Origin: Bacillus sp. FJAT-29937 | GTDB taxonomy: Bacteria; Bacillota; Bacilli; Bacillales; Cytobacillaceae | Reading direction: 5' to 3' | Assembly: GCF_001509555.1 (NCBI RefSeq) | Contig: NZ_LMAS01000002.1 | Span: 124,001 to 188,000, forward strand | DNA: 64,000 bases | Shown: positions 13,691 to 24,104 of the stretch, one piece after another | Position numbering within the stretch: the stretch's first letter is position 1 | Layout of the letters: each line of letters opens with the position of its first letter | Notes under the pieces: generated by a model | Database searches by the model: none | What the model was told of the DNA's origin: nothing | Seen by the model: the letters and a program-made list of their open reading frames with translations, nothing else | Made by a program: the position numbers and the translations under genes

Positions 13691-14328
13691 ATATCGAGGA
13701 GCTATCATTTGATGAAAAAGGCCTTATCCCGGCTATTGTTCAGGATGCGACAACACGAGAAGTTTTGACATTAGCTTACATGAACCGGGAATCTCTTGAA
13801 AAATCAATCGAGTCAGGTGAAACGTGGTTTTTCAGCCGTTCTAGACAGGAGCTTTGGCATAAAGGAGCAACGAGCGGGAACACGCAGCGAATTGTCGAAA
13901 TGAAATTTGACTGTGATAAAGATGCGATTGTGGTGCTCGTTGATCCTGCAGGGCCTGCATGCCATACTGGGGCAGTGAGTTGTTTTGAGGAGAGCCTTTA
14001 TCAATCAGGCGAATCTGCTGGCAGCCTATCAGATTATAGCATTCTCTTGTCACTTGAAAAATTGATTCAAGAGCGGGAATCGGAACGACCGGAAGGAGCC
14101 TACACAACCTATTTATTCGAAAAAGGCGTGGACAAAATTTTGAAAAAGGTCGGCGAAGAAGCGGCCGAGGTCATCATCGCCGCAAAAAACCGTGACAAAG
14201 AAGAGTTAAAATGGGAAGCGGCTGATCTGCTCTATCATTTACTCGTGTTACTTAGAGAGCAGGAGCTTCCGTTTAAAGAAGTGTTGAGTGTGTTGGATAA
14301 AAGACATGAGAAGAAATCGGATGAATAG
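13687..14328 (+). CDS. hisI: bifunctional PRA-CH/PRA-PH protein HisI(E)
   Basis: A fused enzyme of 213 residues. The N-terminal half (about 1-110) is phosphoribosyl-AMP cyclohydrolase with metal-binding Cys/Asp motifs ([26 protein letters not shown]). The C-terminal half (about 115-205) is phosphoribosyl-ATP pyrophosphohydrolase with [15 protein letters not shown] and the acidic segment of the MazG-like fold. It catalyses steps 2 and 3 of histidine synthesis. Last gene of the operon, followed by a terminator. Confidence 0.96.
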
Positions 14329-15970: not shown

Positions 15971-17122
15971 TTAAAACCTCATTCTCCGCGCCATCGGTTC
16001 GACAACTTGATCCATTAACCGCTTCAAAAATCCCCATACGAATCTCGAACGCAAAGACAAGTGCTTATTATAGAAAAAAGTATATTCGATCGCCTGAAAA
16101 GCCCCGCGGTTTCTTTTGAAATTGCCGGCACCCGCACTGTAATGGCCAATAAAATCCTTTTCAAGAACTTCATCAGTTATTAAATAAGACAACAGACGAT
16201 ACAGTCCATTCATCTGTCCTTTCTCTATTTCATAGCCAAAAATCGGAGTAGTCAGGACACCATTCCGATGAAAATAACCAATTGCTCCATCATAGGAATC
16301 TTGATTCTTTAGCAGTTTAAAATACATTAATTGATAGTCCAGTGCGTTTTTAAAAAAGTGCCACGTAAATTGCGGATTATGCTCTGAATACTTTTTGATA
16401 TAAAGCTGCTCATAATGGCTTTTTATCACATGAATCAAGTCTTCATTTACATCCGAGCCCTCAACGACCTGATAAGAACTTTTCTCCAGCAAAGCTTGAT
16501 CCCGGAAAAAATCCCTTATCCGTTTCTTGCTTAACTCTTTAAATCGGTCAGGATGCAGTAAATATACGGAACGCGACATAATTCGCTTATACGAATTTTT
16601 CTCAAACCCAGCAAACATTTCAGGATAGAGTTCCTTAACAACCGAGCGGAATTGAATGGAATGCTCAGGAAATTGCCTAGTCAAAAACTTCGTAATCCGC
16701 TCAATTTGCCCAGCGCTTAATGGAAAATAAAGATTAGTCGATAGAAACCAATTATTTACCGATACAATTTTATTAATCGCAGTCTGCCGAAAAATAAACC
16801 CAATGAAATCAATGCCTTTCGAAAGGAGCTTTTCCAATCGCGGCTTTTTTAATTCCCACAGCTCCTCCTTCGCATAAGAAATATAGTGCGTATAAGGGGA
16901 GCAAACATATGAATTTTCAAATTCTTTGTCATTCACCGTCAAAGGCATAACAAGATTATCGATTTCCAATAGATACACGTCTGCACGAACATTTGTAATA
17001 TACTTTTCTACTCCATCACGAAGAATTGGGGAAAAATAATCACGGACATAGGCGCCGTCCTTTTTGCTTGCCCAATCAATTTGAACCAACGTCGTTTTGT
17101 CATGAAGATGGATCATGTTCAA
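15971..17122 (-). CDS. GNAT/FemAB-like putative acyltransferase of the six-gene cluster
   Basis: A protein of 383 residues that I do not recognise with certainty. The C-terminal half (about 215-370) looks like a GNAT/BioF2-type acyltransferase fold: a helix with HYEQLYIKKYSEHNPQF, a strand pair GAIGYFHRNGVLTTPIFGYE, LLSYLITDEVL, and the closing GNFKRNRGAFQAIEYTFFYNKHL. The N-terminal half is unassigned. Start is TTG at 17122, overlapping the upstream stop as TTGA; GAAAGG lies 6 bases away. It is the last gene of the operon, so an acyl or aminoacyl transfer at the end of a pathway is a reasonable inference only. Confidence 0.5.
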   Translation of the reverse strand: MNMIHLHDKTTLVQIDWASKKDGAYVRDYFSPILRDGVEKYITNVRADVYLLEIDNLVMPLTVNDKEFENSYVCSPYTHYISYAKEELWELKKPRLEKLLSKGIDFIGFIFRQTAINKIVSVNNWFLSTNLYFPLSAGQIERITKFLTRQFPEHSIQFRSVVKELYPEMFAGFEKNSYKRIMSRSVYLLHPDRFKELSKKRIRDFFRDQALLEKSSYQVVEGSDVNEDLIHVIKSHYEQLYIKKYSEHNPQFTWHFFKNALDYQLMYFKLLKNQDSYDGAIGYFHRNGVLTTPIFGYEIEKGQMNGLYRLLSYLITDEVLEKDFIGHYSAGAGNFKRNRGAFQAIEYTFFYNKHLSLRSRFVWGFLKRLMDQVVEPMARRMRF

Positions 17123-18441
17123 ATACTGCCTTTCATTTGATTTTCAATCCGCTTTAATTTTTTATCAGACGGAAGAATATCATAGGGTGTAAAATGAATC
17201 TTTGGTGCCAAAAGTTTCTTTTCCTCCCATAGCTTAGCCAGCTCGCGAATAATATTCTCCCTAACAACACTCTCATTCCTGCAAACCTTCACCTTAACCT
17301 CCAGTTCCTCCAAGCCTTTTTGAATGACCTTATATTCCAAAATATCTTCAGAGGAAAACATAATCGCCCTTCTAATAAAATCCGGAAAAAGAGAAGAAAG
17401 CTCGCCGCTGTCAGCCTGTTTCCCGTAGAAAATATCATCGCAGCGCCCGTCAATCCTTTCTAAAGCAAGAAAGTGCGAACCGCATGGACAAGGTGTTTTC
17501 TTCTCAACGAGAATGTCATTCAAACGATAGCGGATAATCGGCTGGGTCGTTCGGCTAAAATCGGTAATAATCGGAACAAAAACCCCGTCATCTAAATATT
17601 CCTTTTCAATAACAACCAGATCTTCATTAATATGCAAGGTGCCATGCGAACAACTAGCCGCCAAGAACCCTTCTGTGCATTGGTACACATGATGCAGAGT
17701 TTGCAGAAAAACCGCTTCTATGTATGTTTTATCAATATCCTCCAAAACCTCAGCTACAGAAACAATTTTTCTAGGCTGAATCTGAATGTCCCCATTTGCT
17801 TGCCAATCTGCCACTTTTCGTAAAATAGAGGGTGGACCAATCACAATGGTCGGCTGAACCGCCTTTAATTTCCGGATATGCTCCTCGAAATCATCCAATA
17901 AATCGAAAAAGTGAAAAGCGATCCGGCCATTTTGGGTTGAAGTATAAAGATTATTATTTGCCCTTAAAAAGAAAGCAATCTGATGCTTTCTTAAAATACT
18001 CCCTGGCAATACCTTTGCCAAAATCGTCCCGGCCCAAAGTGCACTCTCCCGGTCTGATATGAGAAAAATCCCTCGATTCCCGCTTGTCCCCGATGAGAGG
18101 CCAACGGAGATATCCCCAATCTTCGGTGAAAAATCCCTTGAATTCTCCGCTTCAAAAGCAACATGAAGGGCTTCTTCTTTTTTGATCCCGACCGTATTAA
18201 TGGAATCAAAGTTCTCCATCATGATGGACTTGTCTATCATCGGCAGCTGGTCCCAATGATTGTATTTCAATTCATCCTCGTATCCTTTATAAAACTCCCG
18301 GTAAAAAGGGGAGGATTCAAGCACAAATTCCAAATGCTTTTTTATTTTCCTATTCTGATAAGTTTCAAGCTCTTCGCGGGAAGAAAAATTCCTCCCAAAT
18401 TTAGTCGTAATATACTGTTTTAAGATGGATATTTTATTCAT
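17119..18441 (-). CDS. PaaK/F390-synthetase-like adenylate-forming enzyme
   Basis: A protein of 440 residues in the CapK/PaaK (phenylacetate-CoA ligase-like) branch of adenylate-forming enzymes. It has the P-loop GLSSGTSGNRGIF near residues 112-125, YQCTEGFLAASC, the RYRLND core motif, a CPCG cysteine pair typical of this branch, and IDGRCDDIFYG before the C-terminal subdomain. It should activate a carboxylate as an acyl-AMP and pass it to CoA, a carrier or an amine; the substrate is unknown. The ATG overlaps the upstream gene by 8 bases and the next gene by 4. Confidence 0.8.
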   Translation of the reverse strand: MNKISILKQYITTKFGRNFSSREELETYQNRKIKKHLEFVLESSPFYREFYKGYEDELKYNHWDQLPMIDKSIMMENFDSINTVGIKKEEALHVAFEAENSRDFSPKIGDISVGLSSGTSGNRGIFLISDRESALWAGTILAKVLPGSILRKHQIAFFLRANNNLYTSTQNGRIAFHFFDLLDDFEEHIRKLKAVQPTIVIGPPSILRKVADWQANGDIQIQPRKIVSVAEVLEDIDKTYIEAVFLQTLHHVYQCTEGFLAASCSHGTLHINEDLVVIEKEYLDDGVFVPIITDFSRTTQPIIRYRLNDILVEKKTPCPCGSHFLALERIDGRCDDIFYGKQADSGELSSLFPDFIRRAIMFSSEDILEYKVIQKGLEELEVKVKVCRNESVVRENIIRELAKLWEEKKLLAPKIHFTPYDILPSDKKLKRIENQMKGSI

Positions 18442-19285
18442 AAATAAAACCCCTCTTCGCCTTTTCCCAAGTAATCGAGCAATGAGTTGGCAAAATATCT
18501 ATCTCCGGCTGAACCTTTGATAAATGATGCAGCATTTGAATATTCCTAACATATTGCTGCTTATCTGCAATAAGCAAGTCAGCGATTTTATGCGGATAAA
18601 TGAGCTGCTCAAAAGCCTCGCTTACCCATACCGCATCCGCACATAGAAAAACGCGTTTTCCGCTCATAAGCTCAATGAAAATGCCGAATTGCCCGACTGC
18701 ATGCCCTGTTAAATCAACCGCGACAACCGAATCATCATCAAACACAGCGTACCCTTTCTCAAATTCCCCAAAGCTTTCGTCTAAATCAATCTGTGCTGCA
18801 CGGTCAATAAAAGTCAGCCTTTCATTTAGATCCGCTGGCAGTAATTCAAGCAAGCAGCCCTTTGTAAGCGCCTTGAATTTACTGTTATGGCGAATATCCT
18901 CGTAAGCTGATTCGAATGTATATACCTTTGCCTGAGGAAAGTCCTTCAGCCCAGCCGTATGGTCTCCATGAAAATGCGAAATAAGGATGGTGCTGATATC
19001 GTCAGGTGAAATTCCGTCCTCCAGTAATTGATTTTTAATCGATTGCTCCTCGGAAAAATAAACCGGTGTTAGCTTCGCATAAACCGAGTAAGGAAATCTT
19101 TTTGTTGACTCGAAAAAGCGGGAAGCATACCCTGTATCAAATAAAATATAACCGTGTGTTGAATGCTCCAGCAGCCCAACAATCGCGGGAAAGGCAATCG
19201 CTTGAAATCCCTTGTTCGGGTTCACAATTTTTTCAGGATGTGTACAATAGCCGCATTCGTATAGCTTTAACATCTTAATGCTCAT
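18434..19285 (-). CDS. MBL-fold hydrolase resembling AHL lactonases
   Basis: A metallo-beta-lactamase-fold hydrolase of 283 residues. The dinuclear metal motif is HFHGDHTAGL near residues 104-113; later ligands are the His in DLTGHAVGQFG, the Asp in CADAVW and the His in ILPTHCS. The N-terminal layout (LYECGYC ... LLEHSTHGYILFDTGYA) is that of the AiiA/AttM-type lactonase group rather than glyoxalase II. A lactone- or thioester-opening step, editing, or self-protection would fit; the substrate is unknown. It overlaps both neighbours (11 and 8 bases). Confidence 0.8.
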   Translation of the reverse strand: MSIKMLKLYECGYCTHPEKIVNPNKGFQAIAFPAIVGLLEHSTHGYILFDTGYASRFFESTKRFPYSVYAKLTPVYFSEEQSIKNQLLEDGISPDDISTILISHFHGDHTAGLKDFPQAKVYTFESAYEDIRHNSKFKALTKGCLLELLPADLNERLTFIDRAAQIDLDESFGEFEKGYAVFDDDSVVAVDLTGHAVGQFGIFIELMSGKRVFLCADAVWVSEAFEQLIYPHKIADLLIADKQQYVRNIQMLHHLSKVQPEIDILPTHCSITWEKAKRGFIYE

Positions 19286-20267
19286 TTTTCTTCCACCAAT
19301 CTACAAAATGCTGAATCCCTTCCTCGATACTGACTCGAGGTTCATAGCCGAGCTCCTTCTTCGCTTTTTCAATGTTTAATGTTTGTGATTTGGAAAGGAC
19401 ACTCACTGTATAGCGGGTAAGAATCGGCTCCTTTCCGCCAAGAAAAATGGACGACACATGCTCGAGGACCTTTGCAATGAAAAACGCCTTATTAAACGAA
19501 ATATCTTTATAGGAATAGGTTTTCCCAAGCTGCCCCATCACTTCTTCAATCATCTTGTACAGATTCACACGAACGCCATTCGTTATATTATATTTTTGAC
19601 CTAGTGTATGCTCCCCTGAATTCATGCACAGGATTAAGGCATCCACGACATTTTCAACATAGGTGATGTCCACTTCAACTGAGCCATCGCCAATTTTCGG
19701 AAACATGCCTTTTTCACAAACTTTTATTAAACGAGGCAGAATCGCGTTGTCACCTGGCCCGAATATGGCTCGAGGACGGATCGTCACGACCGGAAGCCCG
19801 TCCCGAAAAGCCTGATCAATTTCCCGCTCCGCCAAGTATTTCGTTTTGGCGTAGTGATTGACGAATGTTTCAGGCAGCTGATCCGATTCTTTCACATCTA
19901 ATCTTTCATCATAATGAAAGTACAGGCTTGGTGTAGACACATGAATAAGCCGCTTCACATTTGCTTGCCTGCAGCCTTCGATTATATTCTTTGTGCCGAT
20001 AACATTAGAGTTATAGAAATCATCATATTTTCCCCATGGTGAGGAAAGGGCGCCGCTATGAATAACATAATCCTGTCCGTGACATAAGTCGAGAACGCTC
20101 TCTTCGTCCTCCAAGGAACAGGAAATAAACCGAACCCCCTGCTTGTTCAGCTGCTTGCCAATTGCTTGATTTCTCCCAATTGCAGTGACATCATAGCCCA
20201 TTTTATGCAGACGCAAAGCTAGCTTCTGCCCAAGAAAACCAGTTCCGCCCGTTACTAAAATCTTCAT
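19275..20267 (-). CDS. NAD(P)-dependent epimerase/dehydratase or 3-beta-HSD-like reductase
   Basis: An extended short-chain dehydrogenase of 330 residues. The Rossmann motif is TGGTGFLGQ at residues 7-15, the catalytic Ser-Tyr-Lys set lies in HVSTPSLYF and HYAKTKYLAER, and RPRAIFGPGDNAILP follows. The pattern is close to the 3-beta-HSD/OleD branch, which reduces beta-keto acids or sterols, rather than to sugar epimerases; that finer placement is a judgement by eye. The ATG overlaps the ATP-grasp stop (ATGA). Confidence 0.82.
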   Translation of the reverse strand: MKILVTGGTGFLGQKLALRLHKMGYDVTAIGRNQAIGKQLNKQGVRFISCSLEDEESVLDLCHGQDYVIHSGALSSPWGKYDDFYNSNVIGTKNIIEGCRQANVKRLIHVSTPSLYFHYDERLDVKESDQLPETFVNHYAKTKYLAEREIDQAFRDGLPVVTIRPRAIFGPGDNAILPRLIKVCEKGMFPKIGDGSVEVDITYVENVVDALILCMNSGEHTLGQKYNITNGVRVNLYKMIEEVMGQLGKTYSYKDISFNKAFFIAKVLEHVSSIFLGGKEPILTRYTVSVLSKSQTLNIEKAKKELGYEPRVSIEEGIQHFVDWWKKNEH

Positions 20268-21385
20268 TTATCTTCCTCATCCCAACTAATATCTAATGTA
20301 GATTGCTGGATCATCGTTGTGCCATTCTTTCTGCTTTCCTGCCAAAGTGCGTACATGCTATAGAATTGATAAAAAAACGGCTTAAAATCCCGCAAACTCC
20401 ATGTAATATCCCGATAAGAAAATAACGTCTTAAGCCAACGCATAAACCCTCGGCCCCGCTTCCAATTATCAAACCCATAAGCCATCAAAGCGAGGCTGAT
20501 AGCCATCCTCGTTTCCTGATCCGGATACAAGGTGATTTCAGCGTCTGGAAAAAAACACCCCGCAGCCAGATAATCAAACAAATGCAGACCGCTCGTCGCA
20601 CGAGGATTACATTCAATCGGAATCGCAACATCCTCCCGATTCACAATAAAATCAAAGGAAATCTGCCCCGTAAACCTCAAATCCGCCACAACCGTTCTAA
20701 CAAAATGCTCAATATCCTTCCGCTCGGAATAGCTGAAAGCAATCGTTGCGCCAATCCCAGCTGTAAAAGTAGTTTGATAGACAGAATGGGCAAGCAATTT
20801 CCCATCCCGTGCAATGCCATACGAGCAATATGGCACCCCATCTATTTTTTCCTGCGCAATCCATAAGGAGTCAAAAAGAGAGGGATCATATTCATTTTTA
20901 TGAAGAAAAACAACATGGTCTGAAAAACGTGAAAATACTTTTTTTATTACAATTTCACCGTCTGGAACCTTCGCAGAGGAGCATTTTACCGTTTCAGGCG
21001 TCTTAAACCCAAGCCCCTCGACATACTCAATAAAATCAAACTTATTATGAAGCAGCAGCATATTTGCAAAATCGCCTACAAAAACCTCGCAGTAAGGAGA
21101 AAATGCATCCTTATATTTTGAAATAAAAAAGCTTTCCTCACATGTCGGAATGAGAAGGTCAATTTTATTCACTTGAATAAATTCCGCTAGCTCCACAACA
21201 AAATCCTCCGTCCGAAACTTTGGAGAAGGATAGAGAAAGTATTCCTGAATGGATGCGGAAGATTTCGTTAAAGCATATGGGACGCTATCAGCCGCATACA
21301 CCTCATGTCCGCTCTCCTTCAGAATCCTGCATAAATGCAACGTAACAGGGGCGCGTGCACCCGTTACTAAAACCTTAATACTCAA
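20264..21385 (-). CDS. ATP-grasp ligase
   Basis: An ATP-grasp enzyme of 373 residues of the carbamoyl-phosphate-synthase-like kind. The N-terminal Rossmann-like domain is VLVTGARAPVTLHLCRILKESG, and ATP- and metal-binding residues are in EIVIKKVFSR, IAQEKIDGVPYCSYG and IPIECNPRATSGLH. Such enzymes join a carboxylate to an amine, thiol or similar through an acyl phosphate. Start is TTG at 21385, 8 bases from GGAGG; an upstream in-frame TTG at 21400 overlaps that ribosome binding site. It overlaps the KAS III gene by 11 bases and the SDR gene by 4. Confidence 0.83.
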   Translation of the reverse strand: MSIKVLVTGARAPVTLHLCRILKESGHEVYAADSVPYALTKSSASIQEYFLYPSPKFRTEDFVVELAEFIQVNKIDLLIPTCEESFFISKYKDAFSPYCEVFVGDFANMLLLHNKFDFIEYVEGLGFKTPETVKCSSAKVPDGEIVIKKVFSRFSDHVVFLHKNEYDPSLFDSLWIAQEKIDGVPYCSYGIARDGKLLAHSVYQTTFTAGIGATIAFSYSERKDIEHFVRTVVADLRFTGQISFDFIVNREDVAIPIECNPRATSGLHLFDYLAAGCFFPDAEITLYPDQETRMAISLALMAYGFDNWKRGRGFMRWLKTLFSYRDITWSLRDFKPFFYQFYSMYALWQESRKNGTTMIQQSTLDISWDEEDK

Positions 21386-22364
21386 GGATGATTCCTCCAA
21401 TAGAAAGACCCGCTGACGTACCTAATAACAGCAAGCGATTGCCCCGTTTTATTTTTCCTTGTTTAATAGCTTCATATAAAGCCATCGGAATGGAGGCAGC
21501 AATCATATTTCCATAGTTTTCGATAATCGACATGAACCTGCTTTCAGGGACATTTAATTTCCTTCTAATAATTTTCATGGCAGCTGCACTTGCCTGATGG
21601 GGAATAACCAAATCAATATCCTCCATCAGCAAATCGGTTTGCCCAAATAATTTTTCAATAAAGCTAGGTATAAGCTTAGATGACATTTTGAAAATCGCGC
21701 GGCCATCCATATAAAATAGGAAGTCTTCCTTTGTTTCCTCACGATGCTCTCGCGGATGGATTTTCGTACCCCCACCGCGAATTTCCGATAAATGCGCTCC
21801 AGCACTATAGGTTTCCATATGGGAGGCGAGAATGCCAGAAGGACCGTCCGTTCTAGACAAAACGGCTGCAACGGCCCCGTCCCCGAATAAAATACTGCTC
21901 TCGTCCTGTTTCCAGTTAATCCCGACTGAGGAAATTTCACTGGATATTAAAAGAACATGTTCATATCTGCCTGCATCCATAACATAACTAATCATATCTA
22001 GAGCCGTCACAAAGCTCAGACATGTTGAGTTCACATCAAAGCAAGGGATTCCAGAATGCTGTAAGCCAAGCTGCTCTTGAATTAAAGAAGCATTGCTCGG
22101 AATAGCCTGCTCCATCGTTCCGCTGCCGCTAACAATGCAATCAATTTCGGAAAAAGATAACCCTGCGTCCTGTAAAGCAAGCTTAGCTGCTTCCGCTCCC
22201 ATAAACGAAGCCGTTTCATCTTCAACAAAATGCCGCTGCTTCACCCCAGACTTATTTTCCGACCAGCCATCCTTCGCTCCAATCATTTGATCAATTTCTG
22301 AAGCTGTTACTAACCGTTTCGGCAAATAAGCCCCGATTCCCTGTATCTTTACCTTTCGTTTCAT
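21375..22364 (-). CDS. 3-oxoacyl-ACP synthase III-like (KAS III/thiolase fold)
   Basis: A FabH-type condensing enzyme of 329 residues. The Cys-His-Asn triad is complete: Cys in DVNSTCLSF, His in VIPHQASAA, Asn in IIENYGNMIAAS. The glycine-rich end GTSAGLSIGG is also present. It is the first gene of a six-gene operon with no fatty-acid synthesis genes beside it, so a specialised condensation (OleA-like or primer loading) is more likely than housekeeping FabH. Start is ATG at 22364, with GAGGTGTGA just upstream; longer in-frame starts at 22418 and 22379 lack this. Confidence 0.85.
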   Translation of the reverse strand: MKRKVKIQGIGAYLPKRLVTASEIDQMIGAKDGWSENKSGVKQRHFVEDETASFMGAEAAKLALQDAGLSFSEIDCIVSGSGTMEQAIPSNASLIQEQLGLQHSGIPCFDVNSTCLSFVTALDMISYVMDAGRYEHVLLISSEISSVGINWKQDESSILFGDGAVAAVLSRTDGPSGILASHMETYSAGAHLSEIRGGGTKIHPREHREETKEDFLFYMDGRAIFKMSSKLIPSFIEKLFGQTDLLMEDIDLVIPHQASAAAMKIIRRKLNVPESRFMSIIENYGNMIAASIPMALYEAIKQGKIKRGNRLLLLGTSAGLSIGGIILEY

Positions 22365-22601
22365 GATGTCACACCTCATGTTTAGATGATTCTTATAAAA
22401 ATAAAATAACAGAAACAATTAGAAATTACTTAAAAATTGACAAAAAATGTTTTTTAAAAATTTACACTATGCTATTTGTATGCGAATGTTAATCGAGCTG
22501 TACCCATTGTGCTTTCGGAATAGTTAATATTCTCCAATCCCTTCTCCAACAGCTTGTTTCTATGATATACTACTTGAGTTAATAAGAAGGTGGAGGATTT
22601 C
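22365..22601. promoter_or_regulatory. divergent promoter region between the KAS III operon and yvcD
   Basis: An AT-rich 237-base divergent spacer. A TATACT -10 candidate for yvcD lies near 22566 without a good -35. For the minus-strand operon, TTGTCA with TAATTG after a 16-base spacer is one weak candidate. No clear operator dyad is seen. Confidence 0.35.
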
Positions 22602-24104
22602 ATGAGCAAAGACTCTAAAGCAAGACAAACAACAGGAAAATTACTATTATTTAACCCGACAGGTGAGTATTATTTTGCAAAAGGCTTAAAGGCTTACCAC
22701 AAAAGGGATCTTTATAAAGCAAAAAAATATTTACAGCGCGCGGTGCAGCTAGAGCCCTCTGAGCCCATGATTGTCTGCCAATTAGCTGTTATTTGTTCGG
22801 AATTAGGTGAGTACCAGCAGGCGAACAAGCTTTTTCTGGAAATTATCGAAGAGCTGGATGCAGATATGGTGGAATGCCATTATTTTCTTGCCAATAACTA
22901 TGCTCATCTAGGCTACTTCAAGGACGCTTATCACCATGCGAATTTATATATGGATTTAGATGAGGATGGAGAATTTGCCGAGGAAACGATTGATCTTCTC
23001 GAATTGCTGACGATGGAAGCGGAAGATATGGATGAGAAGCTTTACGAACAGGATGATCTCATTACGAAACAGGAGGAAGCCAGAGAACTGTTGGAGTCTG
23101 GTCATTTTCCGAAAGCGGTTGAAATTCTGAACTCTGTCATAGATGAATATCCCGAATATTGGTCGGCCTATAACAATTTGGCCCTTGCGTATTTTTATCT
23201 CGGAGAAATCCAAAAGGCTGCTGATATTCTAGACAAGGTTTTTAAAGAAAATCCAGGGAATCTGCATGCTTTATGCAACAAGCTTGTTTTTGCCTTTTAT
23301 GAGCGGGATTATAAGGCAGTAAAGGCACTTAAAGAGGTCCTGAAAAAAATTAATCCATTATCCATTGAGCACCAGTTTAAGCTTGGGGCAACACTAGCAT
23401 TAATTGGTGAGTACGAATCCGCTTTTTCTTGGCTTAGAAGGCTTCAGAAAAAAGGCTTTGATGGAGATGGGGCTTTTTATTATTGGCTTTCTTATGCTGC
23501 CCATTTTACCGGAAGAGACCAAGTCGCCAAATCAGCTTGGGAAAAAGCAGTTGAATTAAATCCAGATAAAGCTGGTTTCGAGCCTTGGAATGATGAAAAG
23601 GGGAAAAACAGCGGATTTGAAAATCATCAGGCGTCCATTCTTAAAAGGTTAGAAAGTGAACATATTGAAGAACGCCTATTTGCCCTGTTCTTAACGGCCA
23701 TGTCAGATGGAAAAGAACAGCTGCTGACTTCAAAGGAAATGAATCAAAACTTTAAATTCTCCCATTTGGAGCGGGAATATATATCCTTTATCCGTAAGGG
23801 AGGAAAATCAACCCCCGTTCATGATGTTGCCGCGTTATTATATAAGAATTACCACCCGATTGGCACGGTTGAAGCAGGATTATTTCTAATGTGGTTTACC
23901 GTTTTTGTTGAAGCCGTTAATCAAAATCAGCCCATAAAAAATGAGGCAGCTTGGGCAGCCGCTGTTGAATATACTTGGATCAAAACGAGAGAAGGAAAAG
24001 GATCTCAGCAGCACATAGCTGAAAAGTATGGGATCTCAGCCTCCACTTTGGGCAAGTATGTGAAGCTTCTAAAAACAACTTCTTCTTCACGAGCAGATTT
24101 TTAG
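22602..24104 (+). CDS. yvcD: tetratricopeptide-repeat protein YvcD
   Basis: A TPR protein of 500 residues. At least six TPR-like helical hairpins are visible in residues 20-320, for example AKGLKAYHKRDLYKAKKYLQRAVQLEPSEP and YNNLALAYFYLGEIQKAADILDKVFKENPG. The C-terminal third ends in a helix-turn-helix-like segment (IAEKYGISASTLGKYVKLL). Start ATG 22602 is 6 bases from GGTGGAGG; GTG 22590 lies inside that site. The position before trxB matches yvcD of B. subtilis. Function is unknown; TPRs mediate protein contacts. Confidence 0.85.
   Translation: MSKDSKARQTTGKLLLFNPTGEYYFAKGLKAYHKRDLYKAKKYLQRAVQLEPSEPMIVCQLAVICSELGEYQQANKLFLEIIEELDADMVECHYFLANNYAHLGYFKDAYHHANLYMDLDEDGEFAEETIDLLELLTMEAEDMDEKLYEQDDLITKQEEARELLESGHFPKAVEILNSVIDEYPEYWSAYNNLALAYFYLGEIQKAADILDKVFKENPGNLHALCNKLVFAFYERDYKAVKALKEVLKKINPLSIEHQFKLGATLALIGEYESAFSWLRRLQKKGFDGDGAFYYWLSYAAHFTGRDQVAKSAWEKAVELNPDKAGFEPWNDEKGKNSGFENHQASILKRLESEHIEERLFALFLTAMSDGKEQLLTSKEMNQNFKFSHLEREYISFIRKGGKSTPVHDVAALLYKNYHPIGTVEAGLFLMWFTVFVEAVNQNQPIKNEAAWAAAVEYTWIKTREGKGSQQHIAEKYGISASTLGKYVKLLKTTSSSRADF

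Follow-up and report, generated by a model that had tools for sequence, protein, structure and literature searches.

What does a compact run of six genes in Bacillus sp. FJAT-29937 make? The stretch under study (hereafter, the window) comprises 64,000 nt of contig NZ_LMAS01000002.1 from an assembly of 4.55 Mb, and contains six open frames, designated A to F, all of which are found on the minus strand, from position 22364 down to 15971. In the original prediction, made from the DNA letters alone, these frames were regarded as an undescribed pathway with a lipid-derived product. Our analysis indicates that the operon probably makes a lipid-like molecule. The more specific proposal, that it is a biosynthetic operon dedicated to a lipid-like secondary metabolite and that the product is a beta-hydroxy (possibly 2-alkyl-3-hydroxy) acyl aminolipid, is held with medium confidence. 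The six genes are as follows.

A, 22364–21375, minus strand: beta-ketoacyl synthase III (KAS III) of the PRK07204 family; Cys115, His256 and Asn286 are in place
B, 21385–20264, minus strand: ATP-grasp ligase (PF02655) with the metal motif ECNPR; its TTG start is preceded by GGAGG, 8 bases upstream
C, 20267–19275, minus strand: extended short-chain dehydrogenase/reductase (SDR); nearest NCBIfam model, OleD 2-alkyl-3-oxoalkanoate reductase; YAKTK motif
D, 19285–18434, minus strand: metallo-beta-lactamase (MBL)-fold hydrolase with the full HxHxDH...H...D...H ligand set
E, 18441–17119, minus strand: PaaK-like adenylate-forming enzyme, TIGR02304 (F390 synthetase-related)
F, 17116 (or TTG at 17122)–15971, minus strand: tandem-GNAT transferase of FemX/MprF-like type, itself unmatched in Pfam and NCBIfam

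Conservation of the Gene Set

The operon is modular: A, C, D and E constitute a core, while the tailoring genes vary. In total, 325 relatives of E were found in genome contigs, and the best 80 were kept, so that counts on these loci are conditional on E. Among the 77 E-found loci with 5 kb or more of sequence on the upstream side of E, A, C and D lie on the strand of E in 72, and A, B, C and D in 69. The exceptions to the A-C-D arrangement are one locus with no D (L073), one with no C (L080), and three cyanobacterial loci (L093, L106 and L117). F is found on the strand of E in 40 of the 75 loci with at least 1.5 kb downstream (38 with B and two without it); 29 of the same 75 have B without F, and six have neither. 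In 39 loci out of 90, a set in which a few places were fetched twice, the core is accompanied by a second SDR gene, which is located directly downstream in 35. The six genes are co-conserved, but the fixed set of six gave way to a four-gene core plus exchangeable tailoring genes.

Of 398 genomes sampled from the phylum of the host, nine have an E above the TIGR02304 cut-off; in six of these nine, one being the genome of the window, at least A, C, D and E occur together. Two of the other three (E, 282–290 bits) were inspected and are without the core, and the third is on short contigs. At two loci (L055 and L056), weaker TIGR02304 members (282–290 bits) have as their neighbour not the core but an unidentified ORF of ~405 amino acids, which gives the family at least a second context. 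One of the 14 control genomes, that of Deinobacterium chartae, has E over the cut-off. E matches with E-values up to 1e-60 were obtained in three of 98 genomes from the phylum of an Anabaena, two of which had already been found in another E search. Within the family of the host, E is present in eight of 193 genomes and a near full-length F in seven of these eight, the copy of genome G408 having one internal stop codon; in the eighth (G462, probably the same as L059), the contig ends ~200 bases after E, and no B was seen on it.

The genes are, therefore, neither scattered in relatives nor plain enzymes of primary metabolism, two findings that would have spoken against a dedicated pathway: their order and direction are kept in Bacillales, the core recurs in other phyla, and the host genome has a separate FabH-like copy.

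Tailoring Genes in Relatives

The core is also found in Paracoccus, Rhizobium, Burkholderia and Escherichia coli. A match was obtained in 65 plasmid records, of which 16 were inspected. The following arrangements were observed, those of G292, Paenibacillus caui and Cylindrospermum in genomes and the others in plasmid and E. coli records.

Paenibacillus urinalis: A-B-C-D-E-F plus SDR
Pontibacillus: A-B-C-D-E
Two Paracoccus and one Ketogulonicigenium: A-C-D-E with a divergent TetR gene and a sulfotransferase gene
Pseudomonas FeN3W: A-C-D-E
Paraburkholderia: A-C-D-E-B-F
Shinella, Roseateles and Rhizobium BT03: A-C-D-E-F-Rieske, with B on the other strand
Rhizobium NIBRBAC: A-C-D-E-DUF3419-F, with no B within the stretch
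Fusobacterium: SDR-GT21 glycosyltransferase-(unknown)-C-D-E-A
A genome of the class of the host (G292): glycosyltransferase-C-D-E-A
Paenibacillus caui: A-C-D-E-GT21 plus a second glycosyltransferase
Cylindrospermum: A-B-Rieske-ABC exporter-C-D-E-F
E. coli: KAS III-SDR-MBL-E-PAP2-fatty acid hydroxylase-fatty acid desaturase, between narI and purU
E. coli ATCC 25922: the seven-gene block (L144), chromosome positions 4264045–4270926, flanked by narI and the tRNA-Tyr/purU region

Of 5426 complete E. coli genomes, which represent unevenly sampled isolates, 672 contain the four-gene core, each of them covering at least 80% of the query. In Burkholderia stagnalis, the core is followed by a fatty acid hydroxylase gene, and PAP2-like and desaturase-like frames were read there by eye. 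The second SDR of one locus (L053) scores 215 bits with the 3-ketodihydrosphingosine reductase model, which is under the cut-off of 400, and 382 bits with PRK06914, which is above the cut-off of 320. The GT21 family includes ceramide glucosyltransferases, DUF3419 is similar to the betaine-lipid protein BtaA, and sphingolipids and sterols are substrates of fatty acid hydroxylases. Taken together, the hydroxylase, desaturase, PAP2, GT21, glycosyltransferase, sulfotransferase and DUF3419 genes of relatives point to a lipid with replaceable headgroups, and they favour the lipid-derived product that had been predicted.

Two further arrangements were recorded. In Cylindrospermum (L134, 5145–7906), a Rieske oxygenase and a cyclic-peptide-type ATP-binding cassette (ABC) exporter (TIGR01194, 487 bits) are encoded inside the cluster, the latter hinting at export of the product. 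In two Pseudomonas megaplasmids (L141 and L149), E, B and, in one of them, A, C and D are spread among unknown genes, i.e., the set is dispersed or partly missing.

Ketosynthase A

As had been proposed, A is a KAS III-like enzyme: it reaches 543.7 bits with NF005541 (PRK07204 beta-ketoacyl-ACP synthase III), for which the cut-off is 402, whereas the E. coli A remains below it (333 bits). A passes the broader PRK09352 model (264.9 bits; cut-off, 249) and does not reach the cut-off of the FabH model TIGR00747 (252.6 bits; cut-off, 292.1). A is thus an extra copy, as the same genome encodes another FabH-like synthase that is 34% identical to it. Among solved relatives of A, MxnB (277 bits) and CorB (272 bits) rank first, and the best FabH scores 207 bits; when a profile built from 33 A rows, of which one is a fragment, is used, the respective scores are 340, 330 and 277 bits.

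A ketosynthase tree of 35 rows was built with near-copies (L042 and L178) and distant paralogues (L184–L188) excluded and with OleA, PpyS and PqsD absent. In this tree, 26 core A sequences form one side of a branch whose support, 92/90, is not fully firm, and core A together with MxnB and CorB is split from seven FabH rows at 100/100. Being below the TIGR00747 cut-off and outside the FabH rows, A was rejected as the housekeeping FabH.

The cysteine motif [ST]C[LVT][SG]F is present in all of the 91 A sequences, and an active-site motif of the SCLSF type is common to A and MxnB/CorB (the locus set behind all motif counts includes a few places fetched twice). A glutamate 24–27 residues before the cysteine was found in none of the 91, and an OleA/PpyS mechanism was rejected for A on this ground. 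The glutamate positions of OleA and PpyS were taken from excerpts of the literature, in which MxnB and CorB are placed within the FabH clade and described as being without the glutamate used by OleA and PpyS (PMC4578411).

Enzymes B, C, D and E

Family scans agree with the classes originally assigned to B, C, D and E, namely ATP-grasp, SDR, MBL hydrolase and PaaK/F390-synthetase-like enzyme. B belongs to ATP-grasp_3 (PF02655; 46.5 bits; cut-off, 23.2), its structure model (mean predicted local distance difference test score, 93.2) shows the ATP-grasp fold in fold comparison, and the metal-binding E-x-N-x-R, in the form of ECNPR, is found in 84 of 87 B sequences. C is a member of the epimerase/3beta-HSD family, with YxxxK in 88 of 89 sequences; its top models are reductases of 2-alkyl substrates, the best being OleD (NF042422), with 252.7 bits under a cut-off of 580.

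HxHxDH occurs in all 92 D sequences. The metal ligands are in place, and the best solved relatives of D are lactonases. It was not accepted as an N-acyl homoserine lactone (AHL) lactonase: the scores with the AttM and AiiA models (76 and 58 bits) are far under the cut-offs (390 and 375). E is a clear member of TIGR02304 (599.1 bits; cut-off, 251.9) and SGTSG is found in 92 of 97 E sequences. No function assigned to the TIGR02304 family was found. The best solved relatives of E are phenylacetate-CoA ligases; the candidates coenzyme F390 synthetase (TIGR03335; 30.8 bits; cut-off, 458.7) and phenylacetate-CoA ligase PaaK (TIGR02155; 25.6 bits; cut-off, 646.3) were both rejected. The Pfam scan gave no match for E, which thus lacks PF00501, and no alpha/beta hydrolase among the six genes.

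Putative Transferase F

F had been described as a GNAT/FemAB-like protein and a possible transferase. The F of the window has no match in Pfam or NCBIfam, and none among PDB sequences up to an E-value of 1. For the F family, NCBIfam gave single-member matches only, at chance level (best E-value, 0.015), and at E-values up to 1, PF13480 was matched by 16 and PF04339 by three of 36 F members, the F of the window not being among them. Fold comparison revealed the tandem-GNAT fold of the FemABX/MprF type, at 6–12% identity to FemX/FemA, Sbb17 and MprF. The fold thus agrees with the earlier description, and F is best read, more sharply, as a FemX/MprF-like transferase, possibly dependent on aminoacyl-tRNA.

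Proposed Pathway and Alternatives

In the proposed route to an acyl aminolipid, A would join acyl thioesters by a C–C bond, possibly linking two chains, as its nearest solved relatives MxnB and CorB do. The resulting beta-keto group would be reduced by C to a beta-hydroxy group, as by OleD, D would hydrolyse the thioester or a lactone and free the acid, and E would adenylate the freed carboxylate for transfer. In this strain, B may ligate an amino acid or amine, and F may add a further residue, perhaps from aminoacyl-tRNA, as FemX and MprF do; in relatives, the same backbone would carry sugars, sulfate or other groups. A bolder extension, which we offer tentatively, is an unrecognised class of bacterial lipids across Bacillota, Proteobacteria, Cyanobacteria and Fusobacteria, in which A, C, D and E would build a common beta-hydroxy acyl backbone, probably of two chains, that takes interchangeable headgroups. 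Under that extension, the variants would comprise aminoacyl forms made by B/F, glycosyl forms made by GT21/UGT, sulfate and DUF3419-type forms, and forms oxidised by hydroxylase and desaturase.

Among the alternatives, an ornithine-lipid-like route without chain joining survives best, although we consider it rather unlikely. A would elongate in the manner of FabH with malonyl-ACP, C would give the 3-hydroxyacyl group, D and E would release and re-activate it, and B and F would attach amino acids. The FabH-type Cys/His/Asn set of A, its lack of the OleA/PpyS glutamate, the ATP-grasp fold of B and the FemX/MprF-like character of F are all consistent with this; the grouping of A with the chain-joining MxnB/CorB, apart from FabH, and the 2-alkyl substrates of the top models for C count against it.

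An alpha-pyrone or other lactone pathway would have A join two beta-ketoacyl chains, like its best solved relatives MxnB and CorB, and the lactonase-like D, whose best solved relatives are lactonases, act on the ring. This is improbable: the core reductase C would be expected to remove the keto group needed by the pyrone, neither polyketide synthase (PKS) nor carrier protein is encoded by the six genes, and D is far under the lactonase cut-offs.

The Pseudomonas quinolone signal (PQS) pathway likewise contains a KAS III, an MBL thioesterase and a CoA ligase, and the best solved relatives of E activate phenylacetate. A PQS-like route, with E activating an aromatic acid, A extending it and D serving as a PqsE-like thioesterase, is nevertheless a poor candidate: 3h76, an enzyme of PQS synthesis, reaches no more than 111 bits with A, and the fatty acid hydroxylase and desaturase neighbours in relatives point to long chains.

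Finally, a chance neighbourhood of primary-metabolism genes, each of a class common on its own, is ruled out for practical purposes by the gene order kept over phyla, the separate FabH-like copy and the parallel presence of E and F.

Genomic Setting and Probable Loss or Relocation

The six genes run in one direction and are tightly packed, as originally stated. Of the overlaps of 4–11 bases claimed for all five neighbouring pairs, four hold with the predicted starts (A/B, 11 bases; B/C, 4; C/D, 11; D/E, 8). Whether the fifth holds is decided by where F starts: with TTG at 17122, E and F overlap by 4 bases, and with ATG at 17116, the position at which the closest orthologues begin in the alignment, a 2-base gap separates them. 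Scans for promoters (25 promoter-like sites against 17.5 expected) and terminators (three terminator-like sites against 6.7 expected) were uninformative.

The block is flanked by a hisI-like gene (ending at 14328, with two small genes between) and a yvcD-like tetratricopeptide repeat (TPR) gene (22590–24104), which is followed by a trxB-like gene; these names were read from the proteins. The G+C content of the block is 0.417 and that of the rest of the window 0.410, so composition does not mark the block as foreign, and an island marked by composition was dropped from consideration. Carriage by known phages was likewise rejected, as E had no match at 1e-5 among 50,697 phage records.

In two operon-less congeners (G425 and G426), only C-terminal fragments of F are found between the hisI-like and yvcD-like genes (L048, 10858–11013; L049, 4888–5199), which suggests that the block once sat there and was lost. 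The block does lie between the his and yvcD genes; its description as an interruption of their synteny is qualified by these remnants. The cluster of genome G408 looks to be decaying, with A in several pieces and the stop codon in F (L046, 4270–10729), and in Cytobacillus gottheilii the cluster is found at another place, beside other genes. In one C. gottheilii genome (L045, 5599–7694), a partial copy of B is followed by a longer second copy. The distribution of the operon is patchy, and it appears to have been lost or moved more than once.

Relation to Known Systems and Implications

The Ole scheme comprises a KAS III-fold synthase, a 2-alkyl-3-oxoacid reductase, an adenylating enzyme and a hydrolase, and the order of jobs in the operon is similar to that of the OleABCD olefin/beta-lactone pathway. 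The operon differs in that A is without the OleA glutamate, E is without PF00501, D has the MBL rather than the alpha/beta fold, and C is far under the OleD cut-off. From the PQS pathway it is set apart by its distant KAS III, by the SDR in its core and by the lipid-type tailoring genes of relatives. F is like FemX/FemA, Sbb17 and MprF in fold, but differs from them in its low identity and, in the window, in having no sequence family match. E is a TIGR02304 member and is unlike coenzyme F390 synthetase.

MxnB and CorB, described in two papers as the chain-joining ketosynthases of myxopyronin and corallopyronin (PMC4901931, PMC4578411), resemble A in the SCLSF-type motif, the missing glutamate and the side of the tree; A differs in forming its own branch and in standing with C, D and E, in a set of six genes that includes neither a PKS nor a carrier protein. 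In excerpts of three other papers, the name F390 synthetase appears in a transposon-mutant table of Pseudomonas syringae, a gene table and a sentence on ladderane gene clusters (PMC9823363, PMC5467263, PMC2649909). The open-licence literature, a scope outside which most subscription papers and preprints fall, yielded no account of the cluster, in agreement with the original view of the pathway as undescribed.

The enzymes are of known kinds, and their combination and modularity appear to be undescribed. In agreement with the original prediction, the family scan revealed no carrier protein, non-ribosomal peptide synthetase (NRPS) or PKS among the six genes, and thus cluster rules that seek these may pass over the operon. 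The enzyme set is co-conserved across phyla, the laboratory reference strain E. coli ATCC 25922 being one of its carriers, which makes the metabolite class testable by gene removal. If true, the presence of a FemX/MprF-like transferase in one operon with a ketosynthase would connect tRNA-dependent aminoacylation with a new pathway of the lipid type.

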